A stretch of DNA of 46,368 nt from a virus: the IMG/VR virus record IMGVR_UViG_3300032053_000139, positions 1 through 46,368 of that record. The stretch is one strand, 5' to 3'. Each line of letters starts with the position of its first letter. Within the stretch, counting starts at the first letter, position 1. This document shows, one piece after another, positions 3,262 through 16,104 of the stretch. Position numbers and translations under genes: made by a program. The notes under the pieces are model-generated. The model was not told the DNA's origin. It did not search any database and saw only the letters and a list, made by a program, of their open reading frames with translations.

Positions 3262-3539
3262 CAACTAGGCGGCTCGGTTACGACGACGGGATGGAGGACG
3301 CCTTGATAGGCTTCCTCCCCCGGTCGCGGGGCGCGGAGTACCGGCGCAGCTACGAACAAGGCATCAACCGGGAGGTCCGCCGGCTCCGCAACATCCTGGA
3401 CACCTGCCCGGGATGCTGGCTGTTCGACCCGGCGATGCCCGAGACGGGTTGCTCCTACCAAGTGGGTGTGGGCGCGGCGGCGGGGCCGGGGTGCGGGAGC
3501 CGGCGGCCGTTTGCCCGGAGGAGTGCCGATGGTGCCTGA
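3258..3539 (+). CDS. Hypothetical protein, upstream of the sigma factor
   Basis: 93 residues from GTG 3258, overlapping the previous stop. It contains DTCPGCWLFD, a CxxC pair, and a Gly/Arg-rich tail with two more cysteines. Its last 11 bases overlap the start of the sigma factor gene, so the two are probably co-translated. Function unknown. Confidence 0.45.
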   Translation: MTTRRLGYDDGMEDALIGFLPRSRGAEYRRSYEQGINREVRRLRNILDTCPGCWLFDPAMPETGCSYQVGVGAAAGPGCGSRRPFARRSADGA

Positions 3540-4464
3540 CGCCGCCACTCTCCCGACGCTAACCTCGCCCTCTCCCGCCCTCCCCGCCTGGGCCGAGTGG
3601 GAGGCCGCGGCCCGGCCCATCATCCGGTTCATGACGCGGGACCTCTACACGCAGGGCATGGAGAGGGCTGACTGGAGCCAGGAACTATGGGCGAAGTTGT
3701 GGGCGGCGTTCTCCCGGGGCCTCTATGACCCGGCGCGGGGTCCGCTAGGGGCGTTCGTCCGCCTGGTCCTGCGCCATCACGTCTGCACGCTGTTCCTTTC
3801 CCTGCACGGTCCCGCGCAAGAGCCCCGGCGGCGGGCGGTGTCACTTGATGCCCCGGCGGGCGGCGGTGGCCACAGCGGCGTGGGATTGCGCGTCGAGGAC
3901 CGGCTGGGGATTTGGGACGGTGGCCTGGAGACGGTGGACGAGGAGCCGGACGAAGAAGCCAAGAGGTTGCGCGGGATAGTCGCCGGGGCAAGACTGTCGG
4001 AGTTGGAGTGGTCGGCGTTCGCGGAGTGCATCCTCGGCCAGTCCACGTATCAGCAATTCGCGGCGGCCTTGGGCGGGTCGGTGAAGGCCGTGGATAACGC
4101 CATCCAACGCGCGCGGGCGAAACTCGCCGTGGTCGTGGGCATGGAGGATCCGGCCAAGGTGCCGGGCGGACTGAAGGTCATGCTCGGTCGGCGGACGCGC
4201 GGTGGCCGGCGGACGGGGAGCGCCAGTCCGGCGCGCCTCCTGGCCTGGGACCATCGCTACTCCGGCCTGTACCTCGCCACCGACGCGCGGGGCAGGGCGG
4301 TGTTGGTGCGCCCGGAGGCGGTGCTCCTGTGCCGCGCTGGAGGACATTGGTTCGCGCCACATGAAGTAGGGCGGCAGAGGGACACGAAGGGGGTACGGCC
4401 AGATGAACGCGGAACCAGCGGAACTACGCGGGATGGAGTCGGTGGGGTTAATGCCGCGGGCTAA
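3529..4464 (+). CDS. RNA polymerase sigma-70-family factor (ECF-like)
   Basis: A 311-residue protein. Residues about 22-95 look like sigma region 2 (core binding and -10 recognition): WEAAARPIIRFMTRDLY, SQELWAKLWAAFSRGLYDP, GAFVRLVLRHHVCTLFL. An acidic, Gly-rich linker follows. Residues 156-202 look like region 4 (-35 recognition): LSELEWSAFAECILGQSTY, then GGSVKAVDNAIQRARAKL. This two-domain plan is that of ECF sigma factors. About 110 extra residues at the C terminus are basic then Gly/Trp-rich and unrecognised. ATG 3529 has GGAGGAG 7-8 nt upstream. As the second-last coding block of the early operon it is a good candidate for redirecting host polymerase to late genes. Confidence 0.75.
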   Translation: MVPDAATLPTLTSPSPALPAWAEWEAAARPIIRFMTRDLYTQGMERADWSQELWAKLWAAFSRGLYDPARGPLGAFVRLVLRHHVCTLFLSLHGPAQEPRRRAVSLDAPAGGGGHSGVGLRVEDRLGIWDGGLETVDEEPDEEAKRLRGIVAGARLSELEWSAFAECILGQSTYQQFAAALGGSVKAVDNAIQRARAKLAVVVGMEDPAKVPGGLKVMLGRRTRGGRRTGSASPARLLAWDHRYSGLYLATDARGRAVLVRPEAVLLCRAGGHWFAPHEVGRQRDTKGVRPDERGTSGTTRDGVGGVNAAG

Positions 4465-4975
4465 GAGGACGTTTTCGGTCGAGCATCGCCGCCGACTGTC
4501 CGAGGCCCAGACAGGCAAGAAACACAGCGCCGAGGCCTGCCGCAAAATGTCGGAGGCCCTGAAGGGCCGGAAGGGCAAGAAACGGCCTCCGTTCTCGGCT
4601 GAGACCCGCCGCAAAATGTCGGAAGCTCATAAGGGCAAGAAATTCAGCGCTGAGCGCTGCCGAAAAATGTCTGAGGTCCGAAAAGGCGACCGCAATCCAT
4701 GCTGGAAGGGCGGTCGTCACGTCGAGTCGGCCGGTTACATCAGTATCCACTCGCCGGACCACCCGAGTTGTCACCGTAGCGGGCGCGTCTACGAGCATCG
4801 GTTGGTCTTAGAGGCGGCCCTGGGACGTTTCCTGCTCCCCACCGAGGTTATCCACCACAAGAACGGCGTCAGGGCAGACAATCGACCCGAAAACCTGGAG
4901 CTCTTCTCCGGCAACAGGGAACACAGAGCCGCCCACCGCCTTGCCGTGTCGGCTTTGGAGGTGGCGGCGGAATGA
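4403..4975 (+). CDS. HNH homing endonuclease with NUMOD3 repeats
   Basis: A 190-residue protein. The N-terminal half has about four NUMOD3 DNA-binding repeats of the form S-x-E-x-R-x-K-M-S-E-A-x-K-G-K-K (for example HRRLSEAQTGKKHSAE, TRRKMSEAHKGKKFS). The C-terminal half is an HNH_3 domain: YEHRLVLEAALGR, EVIHHKNGV, DNRPENLELF, EHRAAH. Such proteins are selfish site-specific nucleases. It overlaps the end of the sigma factor gene by 62 bases and so is translated with the operon, unlike the two antisense endonucleases farther right. ATG 4433 and 4451 are alternative starts. Confidence 0.85.
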   Translation: MNAEPAELRGMESVGLMPRAKRTFSVEHRRRLSEAQTGKKHSAEACRKMSEALKGRKGKKRPPFSAETRRKMSEAHKGKKFSAERCRKMSEVRKGDRNPCWKGGRHVESAGYISIHSPDHPSCHRSGRVYEHRLVLEAALGRFLLPTEVIHHKNGVRADNRPENLELFSGNREHRAAHRLAVSALEVAAE

Positions 4976-8971: not shown

Positions 8972-9418
8972 ATGGGCGCCCCGCCTAAAACCGCAGCTAG
9001 ACAACGTATGCTGGAACTCGCGTCGACTTGGCCGGACGCAACCTTGGGCGAGATGTTCGCGGAAGCCGGCATCTCGCATACCGCCCACGGGAACTGGATG
9101 CGCGAGGACCCGGCGTATAGCGCGGCATTCGAGGCCCTGCGCGAGGGTCGGCTCGATGCGATAGAGAGTAACGCCTTGGCGGAGATCGCCCGGCGCGGCT
9201 CGCGGGAGATGTTGACTGCGTTACCTTATGGCCTACTCCTGATGTTGGGCGGCTACCTCGCCAAGGCCCGCCGGCGCGTGGAGCGCAGCGAGGTCCGCCA
9301 CTCCGGCGAGGTCCGGCTGACTCACGCCTACGCCGAGATGAGCGAGGAGGAACTACGTGCCGAAGCCGACCGCCGCGCGCGGGACCTCAAACTTGGTGGA
9401 CTACCTCGAAACGGTTGA
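8972..9418 (+). CDS. Terminase small subunit
   Basis: 148 residues. The N-terminal part reads as a DNA-binding helix-turn-helix (AARQRMLELASTWPDATLGEMFAEAGISHTAHGNWMRED), the middle as an oligomerisation helix region and the C terminus as a charged helix (EMSEEELRAEADRRARDLK). Position immediately before, and 62 bp overlap with, the large subunit support packaging-site recognition. The identity rests mainly on fold pattern and context. Confidence 0.7.
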   Translation: MGAPPKTAARQRMLELASTWPDATLGEMFAEAGISHTAHGNWMREDPAYSAAFEALREGRLDAIESNALAEIARRGSREMLTALPYGLLLMLGGYLAKARRRVERSEVRHSGEVRLTHAYAEMSEEELRAEADRRARDLKLGGLPRNG

Positions 9419-10955
9419 TGCCTTGGCCGAACACGACGCCTACACCTGGGCCGTGGCGGGTAACTACCTCACCGAGCGCGGCCTGCCGCTGGACTGGGAG
9501 ACCCACGAGTTCCTAGTCGCGTTGCTGCGGGACCCGGCCCGGGAGATCGTCGTCCGCAAGGCCGCGCAACTTGGGCTGACCCTGGCGTTCCATCTCAAGG
9601 TCCTTCACGCCGTCGCGGTGCGTGGGTTGAATGCGATCTACACCTTCCCGACCGACGGCCTATTGCAGGACAAGGTAAAGGAAGTCTGCAACGGTTTCCT
9701 GCGCCACAACCCGACCCTTGGCGCGTTACTCCAGGGCGAGGGTTCCAAGCGTGAGGATGCTATCCACGCCAAGCGGTTCGGCCAGGGGTGGTTGTGGTAC
9801 GTGGCCACCGAGACGGGCCGCGCCGGCATCTCCCGCGCCGCGGATCTGGTAGTCCACGACGAGTACGACCGGGGCAACCTCGCCAACGCCGAGATGTTCG
9901 ACAGCCGCTTGGGGCACAGCGCCCACCGGTTGAAGTGGCGGTTCAGCAACCCCACCGTGCCCGGCGTCAGCGAAGCCACTACGCCGAACATCGACGGGCT
10001 ATGGTTGACCAGTGACCAGAAACATTGGTTCGTCCGCTGCCCCTGCGGCGGTGGCGCGCGCGACGGGTGGCAGTTCCTTGACTGGCCGGAGTCGGTGGAC
10101 GTGACGCGCGGCGTGTTCCAGTGCCGCTTCTGCGCGCGCGAACTCGACCGGCGCCGGGGCCAGTGGTGGCCGCGCTACCCAGGCCGCCCGGTGTCGGGTT
10201 ACTGGCTGTCGCAGTTGTCCGTGCCGTGGATCGACGCGCCGACCATCATCGCCGAGTCGCGCAAGGAGCAGGGCTACTTCTACAACTTCATCTTGGGTCG
10301 GCCCTACCTGGGCGGCCTGGCGATGCCCTGGGATGCCGTTATCGACCGTTGCCTGGCGGAGGCCGTGCCCGAGCGCGACGGCGTGGTCTTCGGCGTGGAC
10401 CAGGGCCAGGGGAACGGGCATTGGGTCATCATCGGCAACGCGCGGCGAGGCATCCAGGCGGCCCTCAACGTCCCGGCCTGGAGCGACATCGACTCCCTGG
10501 CGGCCCTGTGGCGCCCGCGCGTCTGTTGCATCGACGCGAAGCCCGAACGTGAGGCCGTCCGGCTTCTCACGCAACGACTGCGCCGGTTCGGTTGCCGGGT
10601 GGCGCCGGTGGAGTACATCGACAGCCCGAGGCGCGACCCGCAACTCGACTACCTGGACGACAAGAGCATGCCCGCTCAAGCGTTCCGCACGCAGGTAATC
10701 GACGCCTTCGCCCTGGGACCGTTCACGGATGGCGTCTACCCCGTGCGCCTGGCGGGGCCGGACCTGGACACGTTCCGCAAGCATTGGCGGGCGATGACAC
10801 CGGTCTATGAGCCCGACCCGCGCGGGAACCCCGTGCGGCGGTGGGTCAACTCCGGCCCGGACCATCTGGCCCACGCGACGGTGTTCTGGTGGTTGGCGGC
10901 GACGCGGTTCGGCGGGCGCGGGGTGACGGTGACAGTGCCAAAGGAGGAGTACTAG
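9357..10955 (+). CDS. Terminase large subunit (GpA-like ATPase/nuclease)
   Basis: 532 residues, GTG start inside the small-subunit gene. It is the packaging motor that pumps DNA into the capsid and cuts concatemers. The Walker A-like KAAQLGLT is at about 68-75, Walker B-type LVVHDEYDR at 164-172, and a zinc-ribbon-like quartet at C228/C230 and C256/C259, as in lambda GpA relatives. The RNase-H-like nuclease has GVDQG (about D348) and CIDAKPE (about D393). Length is a little below lambda GpA (641). Confidence 0.9.
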   Translation: MPKPTAARGTSNLVDYLETVDALAEHDAYTWAVAGNYLTERGLPLDWETHEFLVALLRDPAREIVVRKAAQLGLTLAFHLKVLHAVAVRGLNAIYTFPTDGLLQDKVKEVCNGFLRHNPTLGALLQGEGSKREDAIHAKRFGQGWLWYVATETGRAGISRAADLVVHDEYDRGNLANAEMFDSRLGHSAHRLKWRFSNPTVPGVSEATTPNIDGLWLTSDQKHWFVRCPCGGGARDGWQFLDWPESVDVTRGVFQCRFCARELDRRRGQWWPRYPGRPVSGYWLSQLSVPWIDAPTIIAESRKEQGYFYNFILGRPYLGGLAMPWDAVIDRCLAEAVPERDGVVFGVDQGQGNGHWVIIGNARRGIQAALNVPAWSDIDSLAALWRPRVCCIDAKPEREAVRLLTQRLRRFGCRVAPVEYIDSPRRDPQLDYLDDKSMPAQAFRTQVIDAFALGPFTDGVYPVRLAGPDLDTFRKHWRAMTPVYEPDPRGNPVRRWVNSGPDHLAHATVFWWLAATRFGGRGVTVTVPKEEY

Positions 10956-11206: not shown

Positions 11207-13309
11207 TTGCCCGAGCGCGTAGACCCGAAGACGGACCCCCAGACCAAGCCCGACGCCGAAGTCGACCGGAAGCGTATCGCCTTCTGGGAGTCGGAATTCG
11301 CCCGCGCGGAGACCAAGAAGGCGCCGCGCACGGCCATCATCACCGAATGCCGGAGGCACTACCGCGGCGAACACCACGGGGCGAACTCCAAGCAGGCGCG
11401 GCCCGGCGGCGGCGACCAGGACGGCAAGCGCCCGCTCGTGGCCATCGACCAGATTTTCTCCACCACGGAACAGTGCGTCGCGCTGATGACCGACCAGCGC
11501 CCCGGCGTGGCCGCCTACCCGCGCGAACAGGCGGCGATGGAGCGGTGCGAGCTCGTCTCGGCGCGACTGGACTACGACCAGGACCAGGCGGGCTTGCAGA
11601 CCAAGGCGCCGCTCATCGCGCGAACCATGTTCATCGAGGGTCTTGCCCTGGCGCGACCTTCGTGGGATTTCGCCAAGGATTGGCCGTACGGTGGGCCGGA
11701 CCTCTCCGTCATCCCGTGGGAGAACGGTTTCTTCGACCCCGACGGCCGCGACTGGCACAACCTTTCGGATTACCGTTGGATCGGCGAGAAAGAATGGATG
11801 CCTCTCTGGCGCATCCGCTCCGAGTGCCCCGTGACCTCGCGGGGTATGGAGGGTGACAAACCCGGTGGCCCATGGCAGAGGGTCACGCAGGCCGCGACGA
11901 CCATCCTGGACCGCATCACCGGTCATGAGGGCGAGGGCGCGGAGGGCGAGAAGGGCGGTCCGGGCGCGTACGTCTACCGTGTGTGGCACGCCGACGTGCC
12001 GGAGGGCGAGGAGATAGCCGACTGGACGCCGCCCACCACTCCCGACGGGCTCAAGAGGCCCATATCGAAGCGTTACCTGGTCTTCACCGCCGAACGCATC
12101 CTGGAGGATAAGCCGTGGGGTCCGGACTTCCCGCACGCCTGCTTCGCGAACTACATCGGCACCGACCCGGACAGGGACTATTGGCCCATGGGCGACGTGG
12201 AGTTCTTGATCTCTCCGAACCGCATCCTCAACGTTCTCGCGTCAAGGGGTAAGGCATGGGCTATGATGGTCCCGCGTTCGACGGTCATCTACAACGTGGA
12301 CGCCGTGAACAAAAAGGACATCAGCAACCTCGAAGCCATCCAAATCGGTGTCACCGGTGAGGACTTCGACCGCGTTATCAAGTGGGTTCCCGGCGCGGAC
12401 CTCTCGCCCGGTTTCTTCAGCCTTTGGGAGATGATGGTCTCCGTGTTCGAGCAGACCTCCGGCATCCGCGAGGTCCTCATGGGTCGCGCACCGGAGGCGG
12501 GCAACTCGGGCGTGGCGTTCGAGCGGCTACAGACCTTCGCCTTGGCTCGCATCCGCGAGAAGATGACGAACTTCAACGCCGGTCTTATCAGAATCGGCTA
12601 CCGCCTGCTTGAGATCGACGCCCGCCACGTCCTCCAGCCGCGTCCCCTACGCGTCAAGGGGCAGACGCAGGTTGCCGGACTGGACGGGACGACCATGAAG
12701 ACCATGCCCTTCGCCTTCGCCACCGTCGGCCCCGAACTCTACTACCTGCCGCTGCGGCCGGGCGACACGCTCCAGCCTGACCCGGAAACGAACATCGTCA
12801 TGTCCGTGCCGTCGCCCGAGGTCGTGGCCATGTTCGCCGAGGCCATGACTCCCGAGGCCATGGCCGCCGACCCCGGGATGGAGCCGCCCAAGGCGGAACC
12901 CGCGCCGACCATCAGTTACGAGATACAACTTGAGGCCACGTCCTTGGCCGGGTCGCGGCAGGAGAAGCGCGAGGACATGAAGGCCCTGGTCGAACTGGGT
13001 GGCGCCCTGGGCCAGCCGCTGGTTGACGCGGAGGCCGTCTATGATGCCTTCGACTTCGCTGGCGGCGCGAGCATCCAGCAACGCATCCAGCAGGCCCAGA
13101 TGGCCCAACAGGCGGCGATGGCCCAACAGGAGGCCGTAGTGGCCGCCAATGCCGCGAAGACCGAAGGGCGGGCCGCTGACGCGGCCCACGGGCGGCAGTT
13201 GCAGCGCGACGGAGCGCAGATAGAGGGCCGCCTGGCGCAGAGCGCGGTTCGTGGGATGGGCCGGGGCGGGCAAGCGGCGCGACCGGCGAGGGGGAGGGGG
13301 ACGGCGTAA
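11207..13309 (+). CDS. Portal protein, P22-like
   Basis: 700 residues, TTG start. The dodecameric portal is the DNA gate at one capsid vertex. The length and order (KRIAFWESEFARAE, RRHYRGEHH, IDQIFSTTEQCVALMTDQRP, QAGLQTKAPLIARTMFIEGL, IPWENGFFDPDGRDW, a long wing and a helical barrel) match P22-type portals. The C terminus is Gln/Ala-rich coiled coil (QQRIQQAQMAQQAAMAQQEA), as in the P22 barrel. A membrane-proximal clip cannot be read from sequence alone. Confidence 0.85.
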   Translation: MPERVDPKTDPQTKPDAEVDRKRIAFWESEFARAETKKAPRTAIITECRRHYRGEHHGANSKQARPGGGDQDGKRPLVAIDQIFSTTEQCVALMTDQRPGVAAYPREQAAMERCELVSARLDYDQDQAGLQTKAPLIARTMFIEGLALARPSWDFAKDWPYGGPDLSVIPWENGFFDPDGRDWHNLSDYRWIGEKEWMPLWRIRSECPVTSRGMEGDKPGGPWQRVTQAATTILDRITGHEGEGAEGEKGGPGAYVYRVWHADVPEGEEIADWTPPTTPDGLKRPISKRYLVFTAERILEDKPWGPDFPHACFANYIGTDPDRDYWPMGDVEFLISPNRILNVLASRGKAWAMMVPRSTVIYNVDAVNKKDISNLEAIQIGVTGEDFDRVIKWVPGADLSPGFFSLWEMMVSVFEQTSGIREVLMGRAPEAGNSGVAFERLQTFALARIREKMTNFNAGLIRIGYRLLEIDARHVLQPRPLRVKGQTQVAGLDGTTMKTMPFAFATVGPELYYLPLRPGDTLQPDPETNIVMSVPSPEVVAMFAEAMTPEAMAADPGMEPPKAEPAPTISYEIQLEATSLAGSRQEKREDMKALVELGGALGQPLVDAEAVYDAFDFAGGASIQQRIQQAQMAQQAAMAQQEAVVAANAAKTEGRAADAAHGRQLQRDGAQIEGRLAQSAVRGMGRGGQAARPARGRGTA

Positions 13310-13964: not shown

Positions 13965-14053
13965 GGGAGGGTGCCGTAACGGTAGCGGAACGGTCCCGAA
14001 AATCGCCGGGTCCCCAACGGGCCTTGCGGGTTCGAGTCCCGCCCCTCCCGCCA
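13965..14053 (+). tRNA. tRNA-Ser(CGA)-like, CCA encoded
   Basis: A full cloverleaf of 89 nt: acceptor GGGAGGG/CCCTCCC, T8, D-arm CCGT-AACGGTA-GCGG, anticodon loop CCCGAAA (anticodon CGA, 13997-13999), a 19-nt variable arm, T-arm GCGGG-TTCGAGT-CCCGC, discriminator G73 and encoded CCA. Long variable arm and G73 both fit serine. Oddities: position 33 is C instead of the near-universal U, and pair 27-43 is A-C, so activity may be reduced. CGA reads UCG, a codon favoured in GC-rich genes. Confidence 0.8.
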
Positions 14054-14177: not shown

Positions 14178-14251
14178 CGCGGCGTAGTGAAAGGGTATCA
14201 CGGCGGGCTCATACCCCGCAGAAGTGGGTCCGACTCCCACCGCCGCAACCA
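14178..14251 (+). tRNA. Initiator-like tRNA-Met(CAU), CCA encoded
   Basis: Cloverleaf of 74 nt: acceptor CGCGGCG/CGCCGCA, T8 A9, D-arm GTGA-AAGGGTA-TCAC, anticodon arm GCGGG-CTCATAC-CCCGC, T-arm GTGGG-TCCGACT-CCCAC, A73 and encoded CCA. The first acceptor pair is C1-A72, unpaired, and three consecutive G-C pairs (29-31/39-41) flank the loop; both are the classical marks of bacterial initiator tRNA. Pair 11-24 is U-A rather than the initiator's A-U, and T-loop position 55 is C. Elongator Met or Ile2 are alternatives. Confidence 0.8.
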
Positions 14252-14313
14252 GGTATCACCGGCCCCCGCCCATAGTGGCCCGGGGTCGTTTCCATCCCTC
14301 AAGGAGGTAGACA

Positions 14314-15072
14314 ATGCCAGACGACGAGCAACCCGAAGCCGTGGCCGAGGAGACTCTAGCCGCCGCCCCCGATATGGGCGCACCGGCGGAGCAACCCGAA
14401 GGTGCGGTAGGCGTCTCGGACGGGCCGGAAAGTCCTCCCGCAACCGAAGTGGTGGCCGCCGCCGAAGAGGAGTTCGACCTCACGGTCGGCGGCAAGACGC
14501 AGCGCGTTCCCCGAAGCAAGGTCACGGAGTACGCCCAGAAGGGCCTGTCCTACGAGCAGAAGATGGCCGAGTTGAAGACGCGGGAGGCCGAGTTCGCGGA
14601 CCTCCGCAACTTCCGTGACGCCATCGCACGGCTCGAAGAGACCGACCCCGACGCCGCGAAGGAAGTCGCCGAACGCATCCAGGCCGCCTGGTCGCGCCAG
14701 AGCGCCCCCCTTCCGCCCGAGTTGGCGGAGTTGGTGGAGGGTAGTCGGCGGGCCAAGGCCGAAGCCGAGCACAAGGCCGCCTTCGGCCGCGCCATGACCG
14801 ACGAGGAGTACTCCGAGGTCGCGGACCTGGCCAAGAACCGGCGTGTGCCGGTCCCGGACGCCTGGGTCCTGACCTTCGGCAAGAAGGCGTTGGCTCAAGC
14901 GCGGAAGGCCGGCGAAACGGAGGCCGTCACCCGTCTGAAGGCGGGACAGTCGGCCACCGGGGCGTCCGCCGCGCGCGGGGCCTCGCCACCACCGAAGGCC
15001 AAGAGCGAGGCGGAGATGTTCGCGGACATGGGTGCCGCCCTGCAACGGAGCGAACGCGGTTCCGAAGAGTAA
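14314..15072 (+). CDS. Scaffold/capsid assembly protein
   Basis: 252 residues, acidic and Ala/Glu-rich with little hydrophobic core, as scaffolds are. The N terminus is disordered and acidic, the middle is helical (YAQKGLSYEQKMAELKTREA; FRDAIARLEETDPDAAKEVA), and the C terminus is basic-to-mixed (MFADMGAALQRSERGSEE). It lies directly before the capsid gene with AAGGAGG upstream. Scaffolds organise procapsid assembly and then leave. Confidence 0.75.
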   Translation: MPDDEQPEAVAEETLAAAPDMGAPAEQPEGAVGVSDGPESPPATEVVAAAEEEFDLTVGGKTQRVPRSKVTEYAQKGLSYEQKMAELKTREAEFADLRNFRDAIARLEETDPDAAKEVAERIQAAWSRQSAPLPPELAELVEGSRRAKAEAEHKAAFGRAMTDEEYSEVADLAKNRRVPVPDAWVLTFGKKALAQARKAGETEAVTRLKAGQSATGASAARGASPPPKAKSEAEMFADMGAALQRSERGSEE

Positions 15073-15162: not shown

Positions 15163-16104
15163 ATGGCCGCTGGACCGACTAACTTCGACACCCTCAACAC
15201 GATGACTCGGGCCTACATCGACGAGAAACTCAACGACGCCATCTTCGACTCCACGCCGTTCTACAAGAAAATCCGCGCCAACCAGCGCATCTACCCCGGC
15301 GGGGATACCATCCGTGTCCGGGTCGAGTACGCGTTGAACCCGAACGGCAAGTGGATCACCGGCTCCGAGTCGTGGACGAACGCAGGACACGAGTTCGCCA
15401 CGATGGCCGAGTTCGACCCGAAGACGCGCGTCGAGCCGATGGTCCTCCTGCAAGACGACCTCGACGCCGCGATGGGGCCGAGCGCCTACGGCAACATCAT
15501 GGCCGATGTCTTCGCCAATACAAAGAAGACCCTTATCTACTATTTCACCACGGGTCTTTTCTCGGCCGGTACGGGTTCGAACAACAAGCAACTCACGGGC
15601 CTCACCGCCATCTGCGACGACGACAACACCTACGGCGGCATCCCCCGGGGCACCTACACCTGGTGGGCGGGCGTCTACACCGACGCCGCCGACGCCTCTA
15701 TCAGCGTCAGCCTGCTCCAAGGTCTCTGGGGCGACGTGGCCGAGGGCAGTGAGAAGCCGGACCTCATCATCACCGGCCAGGACCTCTGGGACAGTCTCGC
15801 CATCATGTCCGAGGTTCCCGTCCGCTCGGGCCACGGCGACCTCCGGCGCAACATCGGCCCCAACGAACTGACCTTCCACGGCGTTCCCATCATCGTGGAC
15901 AGCCAGTGCGACTCCGACCGTCTGTACATGCTCAACACGCAGTACATCAGCCTCCGTCCGCACAAGGACTACGCTAACCTCAAGTTCTCGGGCTGGACGA
16001 AACCTGACGACCAGCGCATCCTCACCGCCAACCTCCAGTGGAGGGGCGAACTGGTCTGCACCAATCCCCGTTACCAGGGCGTGCTTGACAACCTGGTCGC
16101 GTAA
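15163..16104 (+). CDS. Major capsid protein (HK97-fold)
   Basis: 313 residues. The N-terminal arm (NFDTLNTMTRAYIDEKLNDA) is followed by IYPGGDTIRVRVEYALN, a core with DDLDAAMGPSAYGNIMADVF, and the late P-domain strand series FHGVPIIVDSQCDSDRLYML and ISLRPHKDYANLKFSGW, the usual close of this capsid family. It occupies the expected place after the scaffold and has a GAAAGGAGAG ribosome site. Length is typical of a small T=7 capsid. Confidence 0.85.
   Translation: MAAGPTNFDTLNTMTRAYIDEKLNDAIFDSTPFYKKIRANQRIYPGGDTIRVRVEYALNPNGKWITGSESWTNAGHEFATMAEFDPKTRVEPMVLLQDDLDAAMGPSAYGNIMADVFANTKKTLIYYFTTGLFSAGTGSNNKQLTGLTAICDDDNTYGGIPRGTYTWWAGVYTDAADASISVSLLQGLWGDVAEGSEKPDLIITGQDLWDSLAIMSEVPVRSGHGDLRRNIGPNELTFHGVPIIVDSQCDSDRLYMLNTQYISLRPHKDYANLKFSGWTKPDDQRILTANLQWRGELVCTNPRYQGVLDNLVA

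Follow-up and report, generated by a model that had tools for sequence, protein, structure and literature searches.

An initiator-like tRNA-Met gene in the portal–capsid interval of a phage contig

The window analyzed here, a 46,368-base IMG/VR virus record with 66% G+C, encodes on its plus strand (14178–14251) a tRNA with a CAU anticodon whose initiator-like identity is well supported by its sequence elements, and the reading that we favor, and judge to be likely, is that it is a genuine phage-encoded initiator-type tRNA-Met that sustains phage translation starts when host initiator tRNA is in short supply or damaged. Its identity elements suggest that it is probably a functional, formylatable initiator. 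If it is functional, the phage would be supplying the tRNA used to begin every protein, and several bacterial toxins act on that step. An initiator-like tRNA had been proposed in the preliminary description on the basis of an unpaired C1×A72 and GGG/CCC at 29–31/39–41, together with an encoded CCA; dissection of the molecule finds all of these as claimed, and the proposed identity is supported both by the anatomy and by how the molecule compares with tRNAs of other viruses.

ARAGORN calls the gene tRNA-Met(cat), Rfam RF00005 matches it with 56.7 bits over 14178–14248, and RNAfold predicts the complete cloverleaf at −30.1 kcal/mol, leaving position 1 unpaired. From the 5′ end, the acceptor strand CGCGGCG (14178–14184, +) is followed by UA, the D arm GUGA-AAGGGUA-UCAC (14187–14201, +), a single G, and the anticodon arm GCGGG-CUCAUAC-CCCGC, in which GGG-CUCAUAC-CCC occupies 14205–14217 (+) and the CAU anticodon 14210–14212. 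A variable loop of only four nucleotides, AGAA, leads into the T arm GUGGG-UCCGACU-CCCAC, with its loop at 14229–14235 (+), and the molecule closes with the 3′ acceptor strand CGCCGCA and A73 (14241–14248, +), followed by CCA. All stems are perfectly paired apart from the expected 1:72, and the window contains a single copy of the 13-mer GGGCTCATACCCC, against 0.00 copies expected by chance.

The two major marks of initiator tRNAs are the mismatch at 1:72 and the three G:C pairs (3GC) of the anticodon stem, with A11:U24 being only a formylation aid (PMC7949028). Position 1:72, which is unpaired or weak in initiators (C×A in E. coli), is C1×A72 in the phage tRNA, and the 29:41, 30:40, and 31:39 pairs are GGG/CCC. 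The acceptor stem also contains G2:C71 and C3:G70, reported as formylation aids in E. coli (PMC7949028), as well as G4:C69, as in formylatable initiators. In place of A11:U24 the D arm has the elongator-type pair U11:A24, a departure from the initiator pattern that had already been pointed out and that the dissection confirms. There are two further departures, C55 in place of U55 in the T loop and C38 (14214), which makes the anticodon loop CUCAUAC rather than CUCAUAA; A38 is near-invariant in cells and is not a published defining mark of initiator tRNA. The acceptor pairs at positions 2 to 4, C38, C55, and the short variable loop go beyond what the preliminary description recorded.

Joint retention of these marks is the chief reason for taking the viral CAU tRNAs that bear them to be initiators. 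Viral CAU tRNAs were gathered with GGG-CUCAUAN-CCC patterns and a position-32 variant, ignoring the acceptor end and removing duplicates. Of the 163 tRNAs in this GGG/CCC class, 111 carry a mismatch at 1:72, 45 have a weak pair there, and 7 have G:C. The mismatch is found in only 13 of 739 non-CAU viral tRNAs from the same loci (Fisher p=1.5e-85 versus the GGG/CCC CAU class) and in 9 of 34 other viral CAU tRNAs (p=1.1e-5), p-values that are descriptive because the sequences are phylogenetically non-independent. This enrichment indicates that the two initiator marks are kept together in viral CAU tRNAs, and GGG/CCC is present in only 14 of 778 non-CAU viral tRNAs. The mismatch itself takes many forms (C×A 31, U×U 14, C×U 13, A×C 12, and A×A 10), and since its kind varies, it appears to be the unpaired state that is selected. 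The formylation pairs are widespread in the class (G2:C71 in 159/169, C3:G70 in 151/169, and G4:C69 in 132/169), and the phage tRNA has all three. Across the viral loci L069–L204, C1×A72 is often swapped for U×U, C×U, A×C, A×A, or G×A. Viral initiator-like loci are often solitary, with 115 of 186 having no other tRNA within 1 kb, a count that refers to initiator-like loci alone.

The tRNA-Met gene is located inside the structural module. The genes for the large terminase (9357–10955), the portal protein (11207–13309; PHROG 156), and the major head protein (15163–16104; PHROG 9953) are all on the plus strand, and between the latter two, on the same strand, are a companion tRNA-Ser(CGA) with encoded CCA (13965–14053; ARAGORN), the tRNA-Met, and, directly 3′ of the tRNA-Met and ahead of the capsid gene, a further gene (14314–15072). 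The capsid protein has distant homologs in myxophages and others, at about 23 to 31% identity; portal and capsid protein searches of viral contigs found no relatives of the phage, the portal protein had no match in cultured phages, and the DNA of the tRNA region had no match in phages. IMG/VR contigs may contain some host DNA. Elsewhere in the window, a NUMOD3/HNH homing-endonuclease-like gene (4403–4975, +) adjoins a gene (3466–4464) that weakly matches sigma-70 region 4, and a tRNA-like element on the minus strand (30259–30349; Rfam 41 bits) has an enlarged anticodon loop and C55, as the tRNA-Met does, and is read as tRNA-Pro(GGG) with an 18-nt intron when ARAGORN allows introns.

Predicted RNA structure between the two tRNA genes is no better than that of shuffles (z=−0.8). 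Because no sigma-70-like promoter was found near the tRNA-Met, we infer that it would be transcribed with the late structural operon and then cut out of the late transcript. Host MetRS would charge it by virtue of CAU and A73, the charged tRNA would be formylated through C1×A72 with G2:C71, C3:G70, and G4:C69, and the 3GC stem would bring it to the P-site, so that initiation on phage messages could continue. The earlier suggestion that it might be used at GTG starts or on leaderless mRNAs is unsupported, because the late genes have strong Shine-Dalgarno sites and begin for the most part with ATG. The neighboring structural and late genes have AAGGAGG-type sites with six to eight bases matched, a picture that is a trend rather than a full annotation, the gene starts having been picked by simple rules; for the gene immediately following the tRNA-Met the site is AAGGAGGT (14301–14308), five bases 5′ of its ATG at 14314.

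A rival explanation, which we regard as possible though unlikely, is that the main job of the tRNA is to replace host initiator cut by a VapC nuclease, with C38 making it uncuttable; in the same manner, tRNA-Ser(CGA) would replace the other tRNA that a VapC5-like enzyme cuts. In Shigella and Salmonella, VapC toxins cleave the initiator tRNA at the A38/C39 bond (PMC4105405), and the M. abscessus VapC5 cleaves tRNA-Ser(CGA) and tRNA-fMet, the same pair that is found side by side in the window, although its cut falls between anticodon bases 2 and 3 and not at position 38 (PMC10287673). Loop changes in mycobacterial phage tRNAs have been predicted to evade anticodon nucleases (PMC10264068), and both tRNAs of the window have such changes, C38 in tRNA-Met and, in tRNA-Ser, C33 in place of the near-universal U33 (loop CCCGAAA), which is seen in 41 of 980 distinct viral tRNAs. 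However, tRNA-Ser(CGA) is absent from the 25 tRNAs most often found close to other initiator-like tRNAs of viruses, and its pairing with the initiator was spotted after the fact.

The distribution of C38 bears on the same question. Non-A38 is very rare in cells: C38 in an initiator context was found in 14 stretches among 84,980 prokaryote species, two of which (L059 and L063) are identical to viral copies, and in a set of 346 actinobacterial genomes, an A38 match occurs in 275 and a non-A38 match in two, one of the two being the C38 genome chosen as the search center. In the genome bins L055, L062, and L068 a C38 tRNA, which may be of cellular or phage origin, is the sole match to the initiator pattern. 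Viral contigs contain 48 C38 stretches. When the pattern was left open at position 38, U38 accounted for 16 of 120 sampled viral stretches, and no C38 locus occurred among the 80 matches listed, indicating that even among viral tRNAs only a minority carry C38. Position 32, examined as a control, also varies in viral initiator loops (48 stretches, mostly U32), compared with a variant in 1 of 119 cellular genomes. With both positions varying, the whole loop is freer in phages than in cells; evasion specific to position 38 was accordingly dropped, nuclease evasion through C38 is treated as hypothetical because position 32 varies as well, and C38 may have come from general drift. In the favored account, of an initiator that sustains phage translation starts, resistance to an initiator-specific VapC through C38, which adjoins the cut bond, is a credible, though unproven, contributor to the benefit, and nuclease evasion at this position is now directly testable. 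A broader and rather improbable scenario is that phages would develop initiator tRNAs for themselves, in some cases on elongator bodies, which have loop changes rare in cells (C38, U38, and U32) and would stay active despite host initiator cutting, and that tRNA-Ser(CGA) and tRNA-fMet in this phage would form a matched pair against a VapC5-like enzyme.

We consider it quite improbable that the gene encodes an ordinary elongator tRNA-Met that lost its 1:72 pair by chance. U11:A24 is elongator-type, and the D-stem bases are exactly matched by a viral tRNA-Arg and a viral tRNA-Ala, as well as by a viral initiator-like tRNA (L071); this common D stem hints that the body of the tRNA may have come from an elongator. 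In contrast, an elongator tRNA-Met has a Watson-Crick 1:72 pair where the phage tRNA has C1×A72, the mismatch shows a strong association with the 3GC stem, both marks are scarce among non-CAU viral tRNAs, and all of the acceptor-stem formylation pairs are present. Y11:R24 is also found in the viral initiator-like class, with 26 U:A and 16 C:G among 136 tRNAs in a sample enriched for C38. Transfer of C1×A72 and the 3GC pairs into elongator tRNA-Met or tRNA-Gln leads to initiation in E. coli (PMC7949028), and since these two grafted marks suffice, U11:A24 is no bar to an initiator role. Like C55, it sets the tRNA apart from cellular initiators, and these two differences might reduce formylation or modification.

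That the gene is a decaying, non-functional relic or the remnant of an integration site is very improbable: C55 and C38 are unusual and the adjoining tRNA-Ser has an A27×C43 mismatch, but the tRNA-Met gene is whole and within the structural module, with intact stems, an encoded CCA, and an Rfam match of 56.7 bits. A tRNA-Ile2 with lysidine at C34 that reads AUA, which would share the CAU anticodon and A73, is hardly credible given the initiator marks, an acceptor stem with G4:C69 and G5:C68 instead of the C4:G69 and C5:G68 linked to TilS recognition, and the rarity of AUA in the window (3.6 per 1000 codons versus 30.9 for AUC).

A phage-encoded initiator tRNA is not new in kind, and the notion that such a gene would be exceptional does not hold. 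One initiator pattern alone has matches in more than 120 viral contigs, and a generic initiator tRNA sequence finds 380 cultured phage records, with matches that cover 80% or more of that sequence in 294 of them; the initiator-type tRNAs of cultured phages are annotated tRNA-Met or tRNA-fMet, and tRNA-fMet has been listed for phiLM21-like prophages (PMC12429752) and for an Erwinia jumbo phage (PMC7760394). This commonness is relevant to the published statement that tRNA-fMet, the target of the S. flexneri VapC, is generally avoided by phages (PMC10264068), and what is common to these tRNAs is that the two initiator marks are kept jointly while the rest drifts. Twelve of the matching cultured-phage records were inspected closely. 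Their 1:72 positions include A1×C72 in Mycobacterium phage Myrna, U1×C72 in Gordonia phage GodonK, and C1×U72 in Streptomyces phage Wakanda and Caulobacter phage CcrMagneto. Escherichia phage vB_EcoM_ESCO8 (OM386653.1, L296) has a CAU tRNA annotated tRNA-Met with C1×U72 and both loop flanks changed (UUCAUAU), which makes it a handy laboratory case for initiator function and VapC resistance.

The tRNAs of Myrna, Wakanda, CcrMagneto, ESCO8, and the phiLM21-like prophages (PMC12429752) resemble the tRNA described here in CAU, an unpaired or weak 1:72, and an initiator-like body. Several cultured-phage tRNAs differ in having CCAGG/CCTGG stems instead of the full 3GC and other 1:72 mismatches, and most other phage initiator-type tRNAs have A11:U24 and A38. 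The D arm is the same or nearly the same, with Y11:R24, in a set of viral tRNAs with GUGA/UCAC stems (L071, L240, L241, L151, L113, and Lactobacillus phage ATCC 8014-B2), and in three of these (L071, L240, and L241) the variable loop is AGAA too. Unlike the phage tRNA, the members of this set have A38 and mostly U55; that of ATCC 8014-B2 has C55, as here, and is without the full 3GC stem. No protein similarity was found between the phage and those loci of this set that lie outside L231–L244, and synteny between window proteins and loci with similar tRNAs amounts to distant terminase and methyltransferase matches only. Compared with bacterial tRNA-fMet, the phage tRNA has U11:A24 in place of A11:U24, C38 in place of A38, C55 in place of U55, a short D loop, and a four-nucleotide variable loop, whereas with the E. 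coli metY/metZ tRNA-fMet it has in common C1×A72, G2:C71, C3:G70, G4:C69, the 3GC stem, CAU, U33, A37, A73, and the encoded CCA.
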